Below, piece by piece: positions 1-36,045 of a stretch of DNA of 64,000 nucleotides. The notes beneath the pieces were generated by a model. The model saw only the letters and a program-made list of their open reading frames with translations, was not told the DNA's origin and searched no databases. Origin of the DNA: Roseateles koreensis (GTDB lineage: Bacteria > Pseudomonadota > Gammaproteobacteria > Burkholderiales > Burkholderiaceae_C). A program made the translations under genes and the position numbers. The first letter of the stretch is position 1; every line of letters begins with the position of its first letter. The DNA is taken from assembly GCF_028595305.1 (NCBI RefSeq), contig NZ_JAQQXS010000012.1, forward strand, positions 104,885 through 168,884, written 5' to 3'.

Positions 1-322
1 CGATGGCAGTGGTCACATCTTTGAGCAGGTCCTTATGGTAGGTTTGTGCCAATGTCCCTTTGCTGATTCGTTCGAAATGCTTGATGCTTTCTTTGACTGA
101 GCAAGTGAAGTTGTCTTCCGATATCCACTTGGCGAACTCCGCAGGCGTGGTGGGAAAGTATTCAAGAATTCTGCGCCCCTTGCGGTCAAGCAGGTAGCCG
201 TCGCCAAGCTTCCGCCACGGAATGCCCCCCTTCTGAGTGGCCCACGCTGTCAAGACTCGAATCTTGGCCTTGGCCTTGCGTTCGGTGTCTTCTTTGGCGG
301 TCTCTGCAGAGTGTTTAGTCAT
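1..322 (-). CDS. Third protein of the recombinase trio, cut by window edge
   Basis: An open frame starts with ATG at 322 and stays open to position 1, giving about 107 residues of N-terminus. Its start overlaps the stop of the preceding 777-residue gene by 8 bases, so the two are translationally linked. The visible part is hydrophilic and Lys/Glu rich at the start (residues about 5-20), followed by a segment with aromatic residues and the motif LLDRKGRRILEYFP at about residues 44-57. I do not recognise a domain. By position it corresponds to the small third member of trio-type integrase modules, which are thought to assist DNA binding; that role is inference. Confidence 0.7.
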   Translation of the reverse strand, partial: MTKHSAETAKEDTERKAKAKIRVLTAWATQKGGIPWRKLGDGYLLDRKGRRILEYFPTTPAEFAKWISEDNFTCSVKESIKHFERISKGTLAQTYHKDLLKDVTTAI

Positions 323-2648
323 CCTTGCCCTCGCTCGATTCTTTGCCCGGGAACGCAATTGAGGCCGCCCAGAAAATCTTCTTGAAAGTGGCCTGGGTCA
401 CATTGGCCATCTGGCTCTCTGCATCGATGAGCTCTTGCATTCGAGCTGCGGCATCGGCAGATTGGGCCCGTGCCGCAGCCGGGAGGCGCATGTTCTTGGA
501 CTGCTTGAGCATGAGCTCCCGCTCATCAACGTAGATTGATTGGACCGACTCGGAAGTCGCATGGTTGATGCAGCCGCTACAGACGGACGGACTCTTCCGG
601 TCGGGCTCCGGTCCTGATGCTCCTGTGCAGTGGGCTTGCTTGCGGGTATGACGAGCGGAACCGAGCATGCAGGGCCCCGGCCCTGGCTCCGCACGGTATC
701 CGCGTTTGATGAGTCGTGTGGACAGAAGGTCCGCGCGTTGGTCGAGTGTTCCTGCCCGGAATCTGGCTGAGCGTGCCAGCCCTTTGCACAGCGCCGCAAC
801 GAGCAATGGGAACTTTCCGCCAACTCGTTCGCCCGAAAGTAGGCGTCGGACGTAGTGGGCGAGCAGCTCCTGGCCCCCCTCTTCGGCCAGCAGATTGATT
901 TCCGCCTCTTCGCGCTTGCGCCAGAGGCGATATGCCCTGCGGTCTTCCGGCCGGCCCGCCGGGTCTGTGTAGTAGGGGGTCAGATGGTCCAAAGAGAACT
1001 GACCGACCTGCCGATTTAGAGAGAGCAGGCTCTTGTGTTCAAAACGGAACATGTGGACCAGAATGAAGATTCGTCGGAACGGAGGGTGTGTTCCATCGAA
1101 GAGCTCCTTTCTCAGGCCTGCACGGCTCAGAAGCAAGGTGCAGTCTCGGGTCCAGTCGAACTCCCAAGTCGGAGGCTCACGAACGTCCGCGCTGTAATCT
1201 CTATAGCGGAAGAGCCAATGTGTTCGACGACGCTTGGCCAGCTTCTTTCGTGCTGGAAGGACTTCGTCGGTTCCGCTAAGGAGCCTGTCGAGGCTCTCCA
1301 GAAGCATGACGCAATCCGATGTGGAGTCGTTGCAGGGAAAGTCGTGCCAACCAGGTAGCCCAGACTTCTTCTGCAAGTGCGAATCTAAGCGATGCGTGCC
1401 GCTCGACTCACCCGCTTGCGTTACGCAGCCGTGATAAAAACCATATTTCTTCTTATGCCCAACAACTTCATTTATTCTGCGACCGTTGTATGTGGCGGAA
1501 AGTGCGGCGACAGCGGAGAAAAGGGTTTTGACTAAACAATTAATAAATTGGCTATCGTTTAAACCGATGCCCACGCCAGCCAGTCCGACGGAGTTCAGAA
1601 TCTTCTCAAACTTCGGGCGATATTCGGGCAGTTGTTCAATGGCGTTAAATTTCCCGGCTGATACCGCGCTTTTCGATGCGATTCTGCATAGCTCCAAGAT
1701 TTGGACGACGCCCCTGCCGTATGTGTAAACCCAATGGTTGCATTCGGTAAACAGGGCTGTGGCCTCTTCTGGCGAAATGTTCGCAGTCCCCCCTGCCGTG
1801 CCCGCGAAAACATCGTTTCTAATCTTTTGCAGTTCCCGCATTGGGATAGAGGGAATCGATTGGACGCTCGGCGACATCGGGCTGAACGCCCGAAGAGTAT
1901 TGTTGAGTGTTTTTGACTGTGCCGCACTGGTTGCAGAAGGGACGTCCGTGACTTGTCCGAGCCCAGGCCGTTTAAACTTCTCGGCGAGCGCTTGCCTGAA
2001 CCACAGAGGGATATCAAAGTTTGCAACCGGAATTCCGATGAGTTCGGAAAGTGCTGTGGGCACCAAGACGTCATTTCGACCAACCAGAAGTCCGCGAAAG
2101 GTCTCCAATTGGGGGGACTTCAAGAGCGCCTTGAGCGCATCATTCAGCGCCAAAATTTCCGACCATCCCTTTAGGGCAACATCGGTACCAAGCTCAATCA
2201 ATTCCCCTCGAGAAATCGTGCCTGGAGAGTAGTGACCCCGTCGAATTGCCCAAATCGCAATTCTGGTGCATGCCATAAAAACCCTGGGAACATCGCTTGT
2301 GGAGACGTCAGAATCTGGACTAGGGAGGGCGGCATTGATTGCTCCTTTGATGCCGTTGACCCAGTCCGGAAATTCAGTCAGAAAGACAATCCTTTTCAAC
2401 GGAAATGCGCCAGTCGAAAGGTTTATTTTCGTCTTGCCCAAATGAAAGTGGCGGATGCGTTCGCCCTTTGTGCTTGGGCCGGACAAATCTACTGTAATGA
2501 CGTCCGCTTCGAAATCGGACATGTAGCGAGGATGAAGGGGCAACTCGCCCAGCCCTGGGAAAGGCGATTCCGGCCGGTCGGCAGTGCCTGCCTTCCGGGT
2601 TGACGCTTCAGAGACCTGGAAAATATCCTTAGCAGGCTTGTGCATCAA
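315..2648 (-). CDS. Large tyrosine-recombinase-like protein (second member of trio)
   Basis: 777 residues. The C-terminal half carries recognisable though divergent tyrosine-recombinase landmarks: NGRRINEVVG near residue 390 (box I arginine), a QKKSG turn near 420 (lysine hairpin), HPPFRR near 521 (box II HxxxR), and VGQFSLDHLTPYYTD near 550-560, where Gln replaces the usual second His and a Tyr candidate follows. After this comes a cysteine/histidine cluster (about 660-695, including CSGC) that could bind zinc. It overlaps the upstream gene by 20 bases and the downstream gene by 8. The size, C-terminal metal-binding segment and place in a trio resemble GmtZ-type integrases. The N-terminal 380 residues are unrecognised. 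Confidence 0.75.
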   Translation of the reverse strand: MMHKPAKDIFQVSEASTRKAGTADRPESPFPGLGELPLHPRYMSDFEADVITVDLSGPSTKGERIRHFHLGKTKINLSTGAFPLKRIVFLTEFPDWVNGIKGAINAALPSPDSDVSTSDVPRVFMACTRIAIWAIRRGHYSPGTISRGELIELGTDVALKGWSEILALNDALKALLKSPQLETFRGLLVGRNDVLVPTALSELIGIPVANFDIPLWFRQALAEKFKRPGLGQVTDVPSATSAAQSKTLNNTLRAFSPMSPSVQSIPSIPMRELQKIRNDVFAGTAGGTANISPEEATALFTECNHWVYTYGRGVVQILELCRIASKSAVSAGKFNAIEQLPEYRPKFEKILNSVGLAGVGIGLNDSQFINCLVKTLFSAVAALSATYNGRRINEVVGHKKKYGFYHGCVTQAGESSGTHRLDSHLQKKSGLPGWHDFPCNDSTSDCVMLLESLDRLLSGTDEVLPARKKLAKRRRTHWLFRYRDYSADVREPPTWEFDWTRDCTLLLSRAGLRKELFDGTHPPFRRIFILVHMFRFEHKSLLSLNRQVGQFSLDHLTPYYTDPAGRPEDRRAYRLWRKREEAEINLLAEEGGQELLAHYVRRLLSGERVGGKFPLLVAALCKGLARSARFRAGTLDQRADLLSTRLIKRGYRAEPGPGPCMLGSARHTRKQAHCTGASGPEPDRKSPSVCSGCINHATSESVQSIYVDERELMLKQSKNMRLPAAARAQSADAAARMQELIDAESQMANVTQATFKKIFWAASIAFPGKESSEGKDD

Positions 2649-4596
2649 TGTCCCTTTCGCATTCTGCGAGCACCGCTGCTGCTTCGCTGGCTTTCAAAAA
2701 TCTATACAAGCTTTCGCAGAATGCAATTCGCGGCTTATGTATCGTGTGGAAGCGGGCCATGTTTGCCTGCAAGAGAGTTTTCGAATAGTCTCGATAGATT
2801 TGCCGCTGCAGAACACAGTGGTAAATCTCCTCTTTCCCAATGTCGAGTCTCAGAGTTCCAGCGCTTTGCATCCACGCATCAGCAACGCAACCCATTGCTT
2901 TGGCATCAAGGATGTCGCTTGAAAATAGCAGGTTGCCGGACTCTGCTCTGGCGGAATGTGACTTCTTGGCCCGGTCACGATGACCGGAAACAAGATGAAC
3001 GGACGCCTCGAGCAACATCATGTAGTCAAGGATGCTTGCTTCCTCAAACAGGCGCGTGGAGGCAGTGGCGGTGTAATTGACCGTTGTCTGCTCGTTCGCA
3101 TGCCCGGCTGAAGCCTGCGCAGTATGAATTGAGCCTTTGGGGCGCAGTTCGTCTAAGGAAAGTCCATGATTTCGCAGAATCCGGTTGTCGAGGCCGGGGA
3201 ACTTGAACCTTTTTCGAAACCTGTGATATAGGCCGCGGGGAGTGAAAGTGAGGAATCCTTCTGCATGGGTCTTGAAGTGCGTCTGAGCATGCAGAAACAG
3301 CGATTGGTCTTCAATTTCAAAGAGACTATCAATTGTTTCTCTTTGCACCAGCAGCAATTTGATAGCAGCTATAGCCGTCGAGCCGATGACCAGTCTGTCC
3401 TCGTCTTGTTCCGAAGCATCGTCCTCATATTTCTCGTCGCTAGACTTTGCCGAACTTATTGTTGACTTAATATCAAACAGCTCGGCAGTTTGAATTTGGC
3501 CCGTCTTTGATTTTATTGCGGTAAGAAGAAATCCTGCCCCGTGCGGCTGAATCATCTCCTTTGTGAGTGCCAGGCACGTATATGAGTTCCACGAGGTTTC
3601 TGCTTGAATTGCAAGCAAGCAGCAGTATAGTGTCGGGGCCGTCAGAAAATAGTCTGAAATTAGAATCTCTTTGAGTTCGTGCGAGGGGCATCGAAAAACA
3701 AGTGTTTCATCCCACGATTGTGGCCCCGCCATATTGGCGTACTTAACTGTTGTGTAGTTTCGATGCAGATGCAACTCTTCGCGCTTGGCAATGAGCGCGG
3801 CCAAGCGCAATCTGATTTCTGGGTCATGCTTTGCAAGTGGCTTGTGGGCAGGGAATTTCCCCGCCATGACTGAAGCTGCCAAGCGCGGGGGGAGCATTGA
3901 AACTGGCTCCCGCTTCAGGTTGGATATCCGCGATTTCAGTGCCTCGTATGCCCGAAATGTCTGCTCGATGATTGTTTGCAGGCTATTGAGGCGCGCTTGG
4001 TGATGACGATAGGCAAAGTCTCTCCATTGCGCCTGCGGGATGGTCGGCAATAAAGCTGGTAACGGCTCCTTGAAGCCCTCTGGCGCTCGCGCGTCATAGA
4101 AATCGCTGAGCGTTTTCGGGCGTTTTGGGCGTGGGGAGCCCTTGCGCTTAAACAGCACATCTGCAATAAAACCGCCCGTTTTAAGCGGCACGGTGCACTT
4201 GCGGAGATAGCCGATGGCCGTGTTGGGGACCGACGCAGCGCTGTCCACCGTCGTAGTGGCGGTGTAGGTGCTTAGGCATTGAAAGAGGTGCTTTACGTCA
4301 GCTCCGGTGAGCGCATCAGGTGCGGTGTTCAAGACCGCCAGTGCCCGAGGGTCGAGCGACGCATGTGTGAGCGCCGCGGAGAACCGGTTTGCCGCGGACG
4401 GATGGACTGGGCTGGCCATGTCCCGGAGGACGACCTCAAGAAGGCCGCCTGGTTGGAGGCCCAGCGCCTCCGTATGAAGAAACACTTGAGAGACCGACCT
4501 CCTGTGATGGAGGGTCTCCTCGGTCGCAAAGGAAACCGTTCCGCCTTGCCAGCTGTGCTTGCGGGTGACCAAAGCTAACGGCGAATTCGTGTCCAT
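2629..4596 (-). CDS. Tyrosine-recombinase-like protein (first member of trio)
   Basis: 655 residues from the ATG at 4596. A GTG at 4614 would add six residues, but the best promoter puts the transcript start near 4619, only a few bases before that GTG, so the ATG is preferred; neither start has a clear Shine-Dalgarno sequence. The catalytic-like end shows KSKTGQ near residue 365, LRPKGS near 484 and AGHANEQTTVNYT near 500-512, i.e. an Arg, a GH box and a terminal Tyr in the usual order. The normal box I arginine segment reads ETSWNSYTCLAL near 334, so the active site looks incomplete. A charged Glu/Asp/Ser-rich insert lies near 390-405. It is the first gene of the trio operon and overlaps the next by 20 bases. 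Confidence 0.75.
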   Translation of the reverse strand: MDTNSPLALVTRKHSWQGGTVSFATEETLHHRRSVSQVFLHTEALGLQPGGLLEVVLRDMASPVHPSAANRFSAALTHASLDPRALAVLNTAPDALTGADVKHLFQCLSTYTATTTVDSAASVPNTAIGYLRKCTVPLKTGGFIADVLFKRKGSPRPKRPKTLSDFYDARAPEGFKEPLPALLPTIPQAQWRDFAYRHHQARLNSLQTIIEQTFRAYEALKSRISNLKREPVSMLPPRLAASVMAGKFPAHKPLAKHDPEIRLRLAALIAKREELHLHRNYTTVKYANMAGPQSWDETLVFRCPSHELKEILISDYFLTAPTLYCCLLAIQAETSWNSYTCLALTKEMIQPHGAGFLLTAIKSKTGQIQTAELFDIKSTISSAKSSDEKYEDDASEQDEDRLVIGSTAIAAIKLLLVQRETIDSLFEIEDQSLFLHAQTHFKTHAEGFLTFTPRGLYHRFRKRFKFPGLDNRILRNHGLSLDELRPKGSIHTAQASAGHANEQTTVNYTATASTRLFEEASILDYMMLLEASVHLVSGHRDRAKKSHSARAESGNLLFSSDILDAKAMGCVADAWMQSAGTLRLDIGKEEIYHCVLQRQIYRDYSKTLLQANMARFHTIHKPRIAFCESLYRFLKASEAAAVLAECERDIDAQAC

Positions 4597-4611
4597 GCAC
4601 GGACCATATCG

Positions 4612-4650
4612 CACACTCAGTCAGGCGGATAGATGGTGTGACTGAGTGTG
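4612..4650. repeat. 12-bp perfect inverted repeat around the trio promoter
   Basis: CACACTCAGTCA (4612-4623) is exactly inverted as TGACTGAGTGTG (4639-4650), spaced by 15 bases. One arm covers the -35/spacer, the other the expected transcript start, as expected for an autoregulatory operator. The core CTCAGTCAG occurs once more, in direct orientation, at 4737-4745, close to the element end, so it may be a recombinase-binding site. Confidence 0.75.
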
Positions 4651-4654
4651 TCAA
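4626..4654 (-). promoter_or_regulatory. Sigma-70-like promoter of the recombinase trio
   Basis: On the minus strand a perfect TTGACA (4654-4649) is followed after 17 bases by TATCCG (4631-4626), a weak -10. Transcription would start near 4619, about 24 bases before the ATG at 4596. The promoter is threaded through the inverted repeat 4612-4650. Confidence 0.5.
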
Positions 4655-4741
4655 ATCCTCTACGCTCGGCGCGGCAGACCGCCGCGTCCCGCCCCCCCCT
4701 CCGCACCACCCCCATGGATAGCCGAATGCCGTTCGTCTCAG

Positions 4742-5038
4742 TCAGTCGGCCAGTTGTTGGTTGCGACACAGCGCGACATATTCACCGTAGGAGTGGCTCT
4801 TTAAATAGGCGGGGCAGGCAGCGACCAAGGTGTCATCCAACCAGACGCTCAAGAATTGAGGCTGCCAACCCGTGGCTGCCGTGGCGCTGAGGCTGTTTGT
4901 CAGGGCTTGCAGGTAGTCCAGGCGCATAAAGGGCGTGGGCTGCGACTGGATTGAAAGCAATTCGTTCCAGGCGGGAACAGGGAGTTCAGAGGGGTCGCCG
5001 TGGACCCGAATGACATAATCAGGCAGCCTCGTTTTCAA
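4742..5038 (-). pseudogene. Truncated COG3146-type GNAT acyltransferase
   Basis: The frame begins MKTRLPDYVIRVHGDPSELP and matches the N-terminus of the COG3146 (DUF482) GNAT/FemAB-like family, normally around 380 residues. After YLKSHSYGEYV (residue about 88) the family sequence is lost, and ten unrelated residues lead to a stop at 4742. The break coincides with the end of the recombinase element, so the gene was interrupted by its insertion. The remaining fragment lacks most of the acyltransferase fold and should be inactive. It is divergent from nadE, with only 11 bases between the two starts. Confidence 0.75.
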
Positions 5039-5049
5039 TCCAAATCCTC

Positions 5050-7145
<2,096 letters not shown>

Positions 7146-35374: not shown

Positions 35375-35450
<76 letters not shown>

Positions 35451-35459
35451 AAATTTGAA

Positions 35460-35484
35460 AAGGAAGCTCAGGCTTCCTTTTTTG
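35460..35484 (+). terminator. Terminator between tRNA-Gly copy 1 and tRNA-Cys
   Basis: AAGGAAGC (35460-35467) / GCTTCCTT (35472-35479) with loop TCAG, followed by a T-run. The downstream tRNAs then need read-through or their own promoter. Confidence 0.7.
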
Positions 35485-35523
35485 TCGAACCTTCACCAAA
35501 GGGTTTGGCAAAAAAGTTCTTAA

Positions 35524-35597
35524 GGCGCGATAGCAAAGCGGTTATGCCCCGGATTGCAAATCCGGTTAGTCCAGTTCGACTCTGGATCGCGCCTCCA
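35524..35597 (+). tRNA. tRNA-Cys (GCA)
   Basis: 74 bases with CCA. Acceptor GGCGCGA / TCGCGCC, anticodon loop TTGCAAA (GCA), T-loop GTTCGACTC. Confidence 0.96.
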
Positions 35598-35607
35598 AGA
35601 AATCACT

Positions 35608-35683
<76 letters not shown>

Positions 35684-35743
35684 GAGAAATCTGGAAACCC
35701 TACCAAATCAGGGATCAGGCTTTCGAGCCCGATGTCTGGCAAT

Positions 35744-35819
<76 letters not shown>

Positions 35820-35827
35820 AAAGTAAA

Positions 35828-35855
35828 AAGGGAAGCCCTCAGGCTTCCCTTTTTT
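35828..35855 (+). terminator. Terminator after the tRNA-Gly cluster
   Basis: AAGGGAAGC (35828-35836) / GCTTCCCTT (35843-35851) with T-run. It closely resembles the one after tRNA-Gly copy 1, suggesting the tRNA plus terminator was duplicated as a unit. Confidence 0.8.
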
Positions 35856-35958
35856 CATGGCTCAATCGTTCTTGTTTGCCCTTATTCGCTCCTTTGCTGC
35901 AGCGATAATCGTGCAAGTCAAACACCACTCCTGGGTGGCGATGAATGGTTGGGGTGAT

Positions 35959-36045
35959 GCCGGCGTGGCGAAATAGGTATACGCAAGGGACTTAAAATCC
36001 CTCCTCTTCACGGAGATGCGGGTTCAAGTCCCGCCGCCGGCACCA
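35959..36045 (+). tRNA. tRNA-Leu (TAA)
   Basis: 87 bases with CCA. Acceptor GCCGGCG / CGCCGGC, anticodon loop CTTAAAA (TAA), long variable arm, T-loop GGTTCAAGTCC. Confidence 0.96.

Follow-up and report, generated by a model that had tools for sequence, protein, structure and literature searches.

A predicted tyrosine-recombinase operon at the end of a genomic island in Roseateles koreensis

The operon and the inserted island

We analysed a 64,000-nucleotide stretch of the Roseateles koreensis genome (the window; positions 104885-168884 of contig NZ_JAQQXS010000012.1, here C4, in a genome of 4.37 Mb), the left end of which holds part of a six-gene operon. A preliminary description, made from the sequence alone, had placed three overlapping leftward genes there, with overlaps of 20 and 8 bases and the third gene cut by the window edge. 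The frame coordinates confirmed this arrangement: leftward frames of 655 and 777 amino acids (aa) are followed by a third that is cut at position 1. The same description had spoken of a three-gene module, which proved too short, since the operon continues past the window; leftward reading completed the third gene (226 aa) and revealed three further same-strand genes of 114, 646 and 442 aa. The six genes, in order, are X (655 aa), L (777 aa), S (226 aa), V (114 aa), H (646 aa) and I (442 aa). With the longest starts taken, every neighbouring frame pair in the operon overlaps; X and L share 20 bases (2629-2648), and L and S share 8 bases (315-322) with an ATG start at 322, or 44 bases with a TTG start at 358. 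Other bacteria have these genes in the same order, and the three window genes are therefore more than a chance grouping. A FemAB_like gene is split by a 36.8-kb insert, and the operon occupies the right end of this insert; we predict, as the probable reading, that the operon moves it by site-specific tyrosine recombination.

2629 to 4596, minus strand: gene X, tyrosine-recombinase-like, 655 aa (661 aa from an upstream GTG); its family profile matches XerD
315 to 2648, minus strand: gene L, large recombinase-like, 777 aa; its family profile matches SE IntB and family X
1 to 358, minus strand: 5' part of gene S; the complete gene (226 aa) lies at C4:104562-105242, with an alternative ATG at window position 322
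4597 to 4774, no strand: right end of the island, upstream of gene X; carries an 11-bp inverted repeat
4742 to 5038, minus strand: FemAB_like N-terminal remnant (PF04339, 72 bits); the host part is 4775-5038 (88 codons), and the frame continues 33 bases into the island
4775 to 4781, no strand: junction repeat GACATAT, right copy (C4:109659-109665)
C4:72831-72837, no strand, outside the window: junction repeat GACATAT, left copy

Comparison within the genus defined an insert of 36,821 bp (C4:72838-109658), with its right end at window 4774/4775 and the operon at that end. A query covering window 4700-5900 matched 17 of 18 genomes in the genus, R. koreensis itself included; in the 16 relatives, homology begins at query base 76-77, corresponding to window 4775-4776. 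C4 up to 72836-72842 and from 109660 onwards is contiguous in the four relatives that were aligned in full. The site is uninterrupted, with one stop-free FemAB frame, in 16 of 17 same-genus relatives, and no FemAB match was found in the 17th (G002), the genome of which is 76% complete. An empty site is thus present among relatives lacking the insert, rather than the same genes in all of them, and the earlier proposal that an inserted element carries these genes at its end as a recombination module was borne out by this comparison. An element consisting of the 8.6-kb operon alone was ruled out, as the genus comparison sets the left end 28 kb further left.

The 304-codon C-terminal part of the split FemAB_like gene lies left of the island, and the gene adjoining this target is one that we take for an NAD synthetase gene. 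FemAB matches in the R. koreensis genome comprise a copy carried by the island and the two halves of the split gene, and nothing else. The 7-bp core spans the end of codon 86 and codons 87-88 of the FemAB_like gene (motif E-Y-V). Where the flanks meet, the 16 relatives have a single 7-mer: GACATAT in 2, CACATAT in 6, CACATAC in 4, CACGTAT in 2, CACGTAC in 1 and TACATAC in 1. The G+C content is 58.8% in the island, 62.5% to its left and 60.9% to its right. Between gene X and the right end lies the 11-bp inverted repeat ACACTCAGTCA/TGACTGAGTGT (4613-4623 and 4639-4649), which, judged by its sequence and place, is likely a regulatory or recombinase site.

The recombinase-like proteins and their relatives

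The operon holds three recombinase-like proteins, of which one, I, is likely the catalyst. Residue roles follow general knowledge of tyrosine recombinases and a study of GInts (PMC5385486). I is the only protein of the operon with a complete Arg-His-Arg-(His/Trp)-Tyr set (Arg228, His345, Arg348, Trp385 and Tyr394). Arg, His, Arg and Tyr are present in all seven proteins of the alignment (A13, which omits a cut Rhodovastum integrase); the Trp385 position is His in five and Gln in one of the other six members, and Lys264 is Lys in 5/7 and Arg in 2/7.

L has Arg391, Lys427, Arg525 and Tyr559, as do all ten aligned proteins. The alignment also upheld the Gln noticed earlier in place of the second His, and a cysteine cluster: residue 550 is His in 9/9 aligned relatives and Gln in this island alone, and Cys 660, 674, 690 and 693 are common to eight of nine relatives (nine of ten with the protein itself). 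Similarly, the 655-aa protein lacks the box I Arg, as had been noticed, with Asn337 at the place of the first catalytic Arg in all seven X proteins aligned (A12, which omits a Providencia 786-aa protein that is X by position only and has a gap at the Asn column in alignment A2). X retains Lys362, Arg485 and His499 (Lys, second Arg and second His in 7/7). The His-II place is occupied by Asp482, with no His there in any of the seven, and Tyr508 is aligned in five, the remaining two having Tyr one residue further on. That the Asn is invariant in proteins so distant from one another points to a structural role preserved at Asn337, not to decay.

Used singly, the 655- and 777-aa proteins gave nothing useful in direct Pfam, NCBIfam, PADLOC, PHROGs and PDB searches. 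In a PDB-wide profile search, family I matched XerH at 6e-11 and family X matched XerD at 2.3e-5. Profile-profile comparison gave 3.8e-5 for L against X and 4.7e-4 for L against I; these and the other profile-profile E values belong to single pairwise comparisons and are not corrected for a database. The recombinase fold of X and L is predicted from such profiles, indirectly for L. S matched a 192-aa Alteromonas protein weakly (0.002), and two of its relatives look coiled-coil from weak matches.

A tblastn search of 72,556 plasmids returned a single record for the 442-aa protein and a single one for the 655-aa protein, in each case Methylibium plasmid RPME01, and nothing for the 777- and 646-aa proteins; RPME01 carries a four-gene X-L-S-I operon (S by position). 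All six genes occur in the same order in Alteromonas pAMCP48-600 and in Colwellia, and the order X-L-V-H-I was read in genome G1164 (neighbourhood L109). In Rhodovastum RHOApc the run is X, L, S (by position), a RepB-type primase gene, V, H and a 369-aa gene, followed by a cut integrase that weakly matches family I (4.6e-4). The gene between S and V (L023:8766-9614), annotated as a RepB-domain DNA primase, would be consistent with a part in replication. On Providencia plasmids the operon has four members: L and I are recognised by sequence match, X and S by position only. R. koreensis itself carries another, divergent X-L-S-I operon on contig C2, adjoining an HsdM gene, with products of 702, 911, 163 and 427 aa (L018:13441-18660, L005:1216-2499).

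L relatives were found in 2 of 399 genomes of the order, R. koreensis included, and family I, among 59 genomes including R. koreensis, only in R. koreensis, twice (at this locus and on C2). A word-based search, in which about 8,000 candidates of 5.8 billion proteins were scored, returned only X and L themselves; with an alignment, it returned seven relatives of the Alteromonas L protein. A genome-contig search gave no locus for the 777-aa protein and one with alignment A6, and two scans of viral contigs gave no match.

The V-H pair and the cargo

V matched the NCBIfam VPA1267 model weakly (23.6 bits, cut-off 90) and the profile of the gathered VPA1267 (V) family at 5.8e-6. The Alteromonas and Colwellia V proteins, joined with the G1164 protein, matched the gathered family at 5.1e-11. 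H matched a RecD2-like family at 1.7e-5 over 539 columns, aligning along most of its length, and the H of Alteromonas scored 392 bits against TIGR01448 (cut-off 500). The H of this island has lost helicase motifs I, II, III, V and VI, all of which are kept in 6/6 aligned relatives.

The VPA1267 model matched in 4 of 369 genomes of the class to which R. koreensis belongs, none over the cut-off, and in 28 of 394 genomes of Colwellia's order, 14 over the cut-off. Of 31 match rows from the latter order, 15 were read (9/15 of those above the cut-off and 6/16 of those below). An H gene follows V in all 15 neighbourhoods, overlapping it in 14 (in L098, H is split and 0.5 kb away), and V stands behind a same-strand run of large frames in 14, the exception being L102. 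Eight of the 15 share one first-gene type, a profile of seven of which matched family I at approximately 1e-16. The four genes of this common type are laid out like an SE, with none better than 0.0024 against the SE proteins of pAQU1, and these SE-like operons may equally be GInts. In L099, V-H lies directly behind a GmtY operon (GmtY 563 bits), and in genome G1022 a GmtY gene lies 3.5 kb before V. The upstream genes of L098, L102, L104, L105 and L108 were not assigned as recombinases. In one of these (L108:7682-14540, genome G1110), V-H follows a run of 679, 677, 325 and 432 aa, of which only the 677-aa gene weakly matches another type; this run is possibly a further operon type.

Across L097, L098, L099 and L100 the V proteins share 86-91% identity; for H in L097, L099 and L100 the figure is 74-84%. 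BLAST at 1e-4, by contrast, detects no match between the upstream genes of L097/L100, those of L098 and those of L099; a profile match (1.2e-8) does connect the first gene of L099 with that of the common type. With V and H alike and the genes ahead of them so distant, V-H behaves, on sequence grounds, as a cassette shared between operon types. A literature search, covering titles and abstract openings, recognised no publication describing a helicase in these operons; the original description of the gamma-mobile-trio (GMT) islands lay outside that search and may describe V-H. The words helicase and RecD are absent from the main text of the SE paper. None of the papers listed names VPA1267 or VPA1269, and the idea that the Vibrio parahaemolyticus island VPaI-6 represents this module is a lead only.

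The preliminary description had expected cargo left of the window, and predicted defence genes are indeed abundant between the left end of the island and the operon:

island cargo: HsdR-like frame of 1102 aa, type I restriction-modification, by our own reading of the frame
island cargo: HsdS and HsdM, type I restriction-modification, by PADLOC and Pfam
island cargo: Septu PtuA and PtuB (PADLOC best E 3.4e-59 and 5.9e-40)
island cargo: PIN-TPR-GreABC protein (PF20698, 80.9 bits), with HTH and helicase neighbours
island cargo: HAD_SAK_2 protein
island cargo: intact FemAB homologue of 379 aa, ending 6 bases from gene I

The region C4:85612-95800 (L048:1113-11301) contains three large genes, an HTH protein, the PIN-TPR-GreABC protein and a ResIII/DEAD helicase; the trio of HTH, PIN-TPR-GreABC and helicase proteins is likely one conflict system. 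Elsewhere in the window, five tRNA genes (Gly, Cys, Gly, Gly, Leu) lie within 0.7 kb (35375-36045).

The island FemAB is 45-49% identical to the FemABs of the genus. It reads GTTCGTA where the target reads ATATGTC (3/7 identical); it is thus without the core and would be a poor target for insertion. We infer that it replaces the split host gene, a target-gene rescue. A host gene that had merely been inverted was ruled out, given an intact frame, this level of identity, and host halves flanking both sides of the island.

Kinship, proposed mechanism and alternatives

The operon appears to work like the SE, GInt and Tn554 elements, and its gene order fits none of them, suggesting a new form of multi-recombinase island. 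The likeness to SEs lies in the pairing of an ordinary with a large recombinase, a partner of recombinase fold without catalytic residues, a small helper, a place at one element end and a short core. In profile comparisons with the pAQU1 SE proteins, I matched IntA at 5.3e-9 over 345 columns and L matched IntB at 4.2e-5 over 73 columns; smaller four-member families gave weaker values (0.0065 and 0.13, respectively). X is equated with Tfp, and S with Srap, from position and residues, without significant similarity. The SE order is IntA-Tfp-IntB-Srap, whereas here the IntA-like gene is last, the cargo is on the I side, and V and H are added.

GInts have three recombinase-type proteins, one without the first Arg, a small fourth protein, large cargo, short direct junction repeats and insertion in a gene (PMC5385486). 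X, with Asn in 7/7, corresponds to the Arg-less recombinase, and the small fourth protein, large cargo, short junction repeats and insertion in a gene are likewise found here. Compared by description, GInts differ in the order ginABCD with cargo next to ginD, whereas here S is third and I last, and V-H does not appear in the available part of the GInt description.

The kinship with gamma-mobile-trio islands suggested earlier was not borne out for GmtY. GMT cargo is defence-rich, as cited in PMC12715929, as is the cargo here, and the V-H pair also follows a GmtY gene elsewhere (L099). The GmtY model itself (NF040693, cut-off 340 bits) matched none of the six proteins at E<=1, the best protein of the genome scoring 24.8 bits on another contig. 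The L099 recombinases gave no BLAST match to this operon at 1e-4, and among them only the first gene resembled family I by profile, over part of its length (1.1e-4 over 49 columns). No NCBIfam match to GmtX or GmtZ was found among the six proteins, the presence of such models in the release being unconfirmed; NF040692 and NF040694, guessed to be these models, turned out to be other families.

The Tn554 kinship, also suggested, stood for behaviour and failed for gene content. Tn552-II is site-specific, with a 7-bp att, and a target-gene-like (tgl) gene beside its tnpABC has been proposed as a rescue (PMC12486829); the island shares site specificity, a 7-bp core and a target-gene homologue. Compared by description, these staphylococcal elements differ in having three genes (tnpA-tnpB-tnpC) and no counterpart of X, V and H. 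RIT elements likewise have three recombinase genes; those of the archetype encode 315-410 aa with the catalytic Tyr, and its ends are 34-bp inverted repeats (PMC10214605), whereas those here encode 655, 777 and 442 aa, the third is not adjacent, and the ends compared have no 34-bp repeat.

In the mechanism that we propose, I would cut and join at the 7-bp core, and L would serve as the second, large recombinase in strand exchange. X, without the first Arg in every aligned member, would be a DNA-binding or architectural subunit, and S a small architectural helper of the TnpC/GinD/Srap sort. By analogy with the copy-out route proposed for SEs (PMC10214605, PMC9345347), a circular form would probably be made with the donor left in place, and the island may move in this way. 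V and a RecD2-like H would help to open or replicate the strand intermediate, the motor-less H of this island being either a DNA-binding part or without a role. The island FemAB would take over from the split gene while offering a poor target itself.

Several observations weigh against site-specific recombination by this operon, and against its SE-like form in particular. The core is identical letter for letter in 2/16 relatives and is 7 bp long, as against a 6-bp spacer in SEs; in place of their 13-19 bp imperfect terminal inverted repeats, the best match here is 13/19, barely above chance, as it was reached by 6/200 shuffles. S against Srap (0.29) gave no detectable match and X against Tfp (0.016) a weak one, and plain BLAST of the six proteins against the four SE proteins found no match (best 0.64). 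The best PDB integrase for L was HP1 integrase at 0.58, with ferritins scoring better (0.29), and the AlphaFold2 models of X and L both failed (pLDDT 29.0 and 37.6). V scored just 0.18 against Alteromonas and Colwellia V alone, and these two gave no match to the NCBIfam VPA1267 model. The motor-less H may mean that the island is decaying, and no circle or movement is visible from one assembly.

The last two points lead to an alternative that we regard as unlikely, namely that the island was once mobile by means of the six-gene operon and lost its mobility with the H motor. The loss of all five H motifs fits this explanation, as does the return of X and L alone from the word-based searches. All six frames are open, however, and the codon-position base pattern of H resembles that of X and L, although this is a weak test. 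Moreover, the Methylibium, C2 and Providencia operons have no V-H between S and I, so that H may be dispensable.

Those four-gene forms also suit a second alternative, which we find distinctly unlikely: that V-H rides as a passenger on several island types, perhaps in a defence or maintenance role, and is no part of the mobility machinery. That V and H stay alike while the adjoining recombinases are too distant for BLAST would agree with it, whereas the overlap of V with H and the position of V behind a same-strand run of large frames, each in 14 of the 15 neighbourhoods, place the pair outside the cargo. An ordinary cut-and-paste island, in which integrase I alone excises and inserts and X, L, S, V and H are regulators or architectural factors, would suit the complete catalytic set in I only and the short identical repeat at both ends, but is improbable given that X, L, S and I, some of them identified by position alone, stay together in species of three proteobacterial classes and that recombination in GInts (PMC5385486) and in SEs (PMC10214605) is reported to require all four genes.

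Returning to site-specific recombination by the six-gene operon, a fuller version remains tentative. The island would be a new replicative, site-specific type in which the SE gene order is rotated (Tfp-like, IntB-like, Srap-like, V, H, IntA-like), a RecD2-like cassette swapped between distant operons including those of gamma-mobile-trio islands, an H that is now a motor-less DNA-binding subunit, and a core-less replacement of the gene that it broke. At stake is the mode of movement of SE, GInt, GMT and Tn554 islands, which in part leaves no empty site behind. For the replication step, the helicase gene that accompanies operons of distant recombinase types is a concrete candidate, and the island joins recombinase machinery to predicted phage-defence cargo and a built-in target-gene substitute, a feature proposed for Tn552-II.

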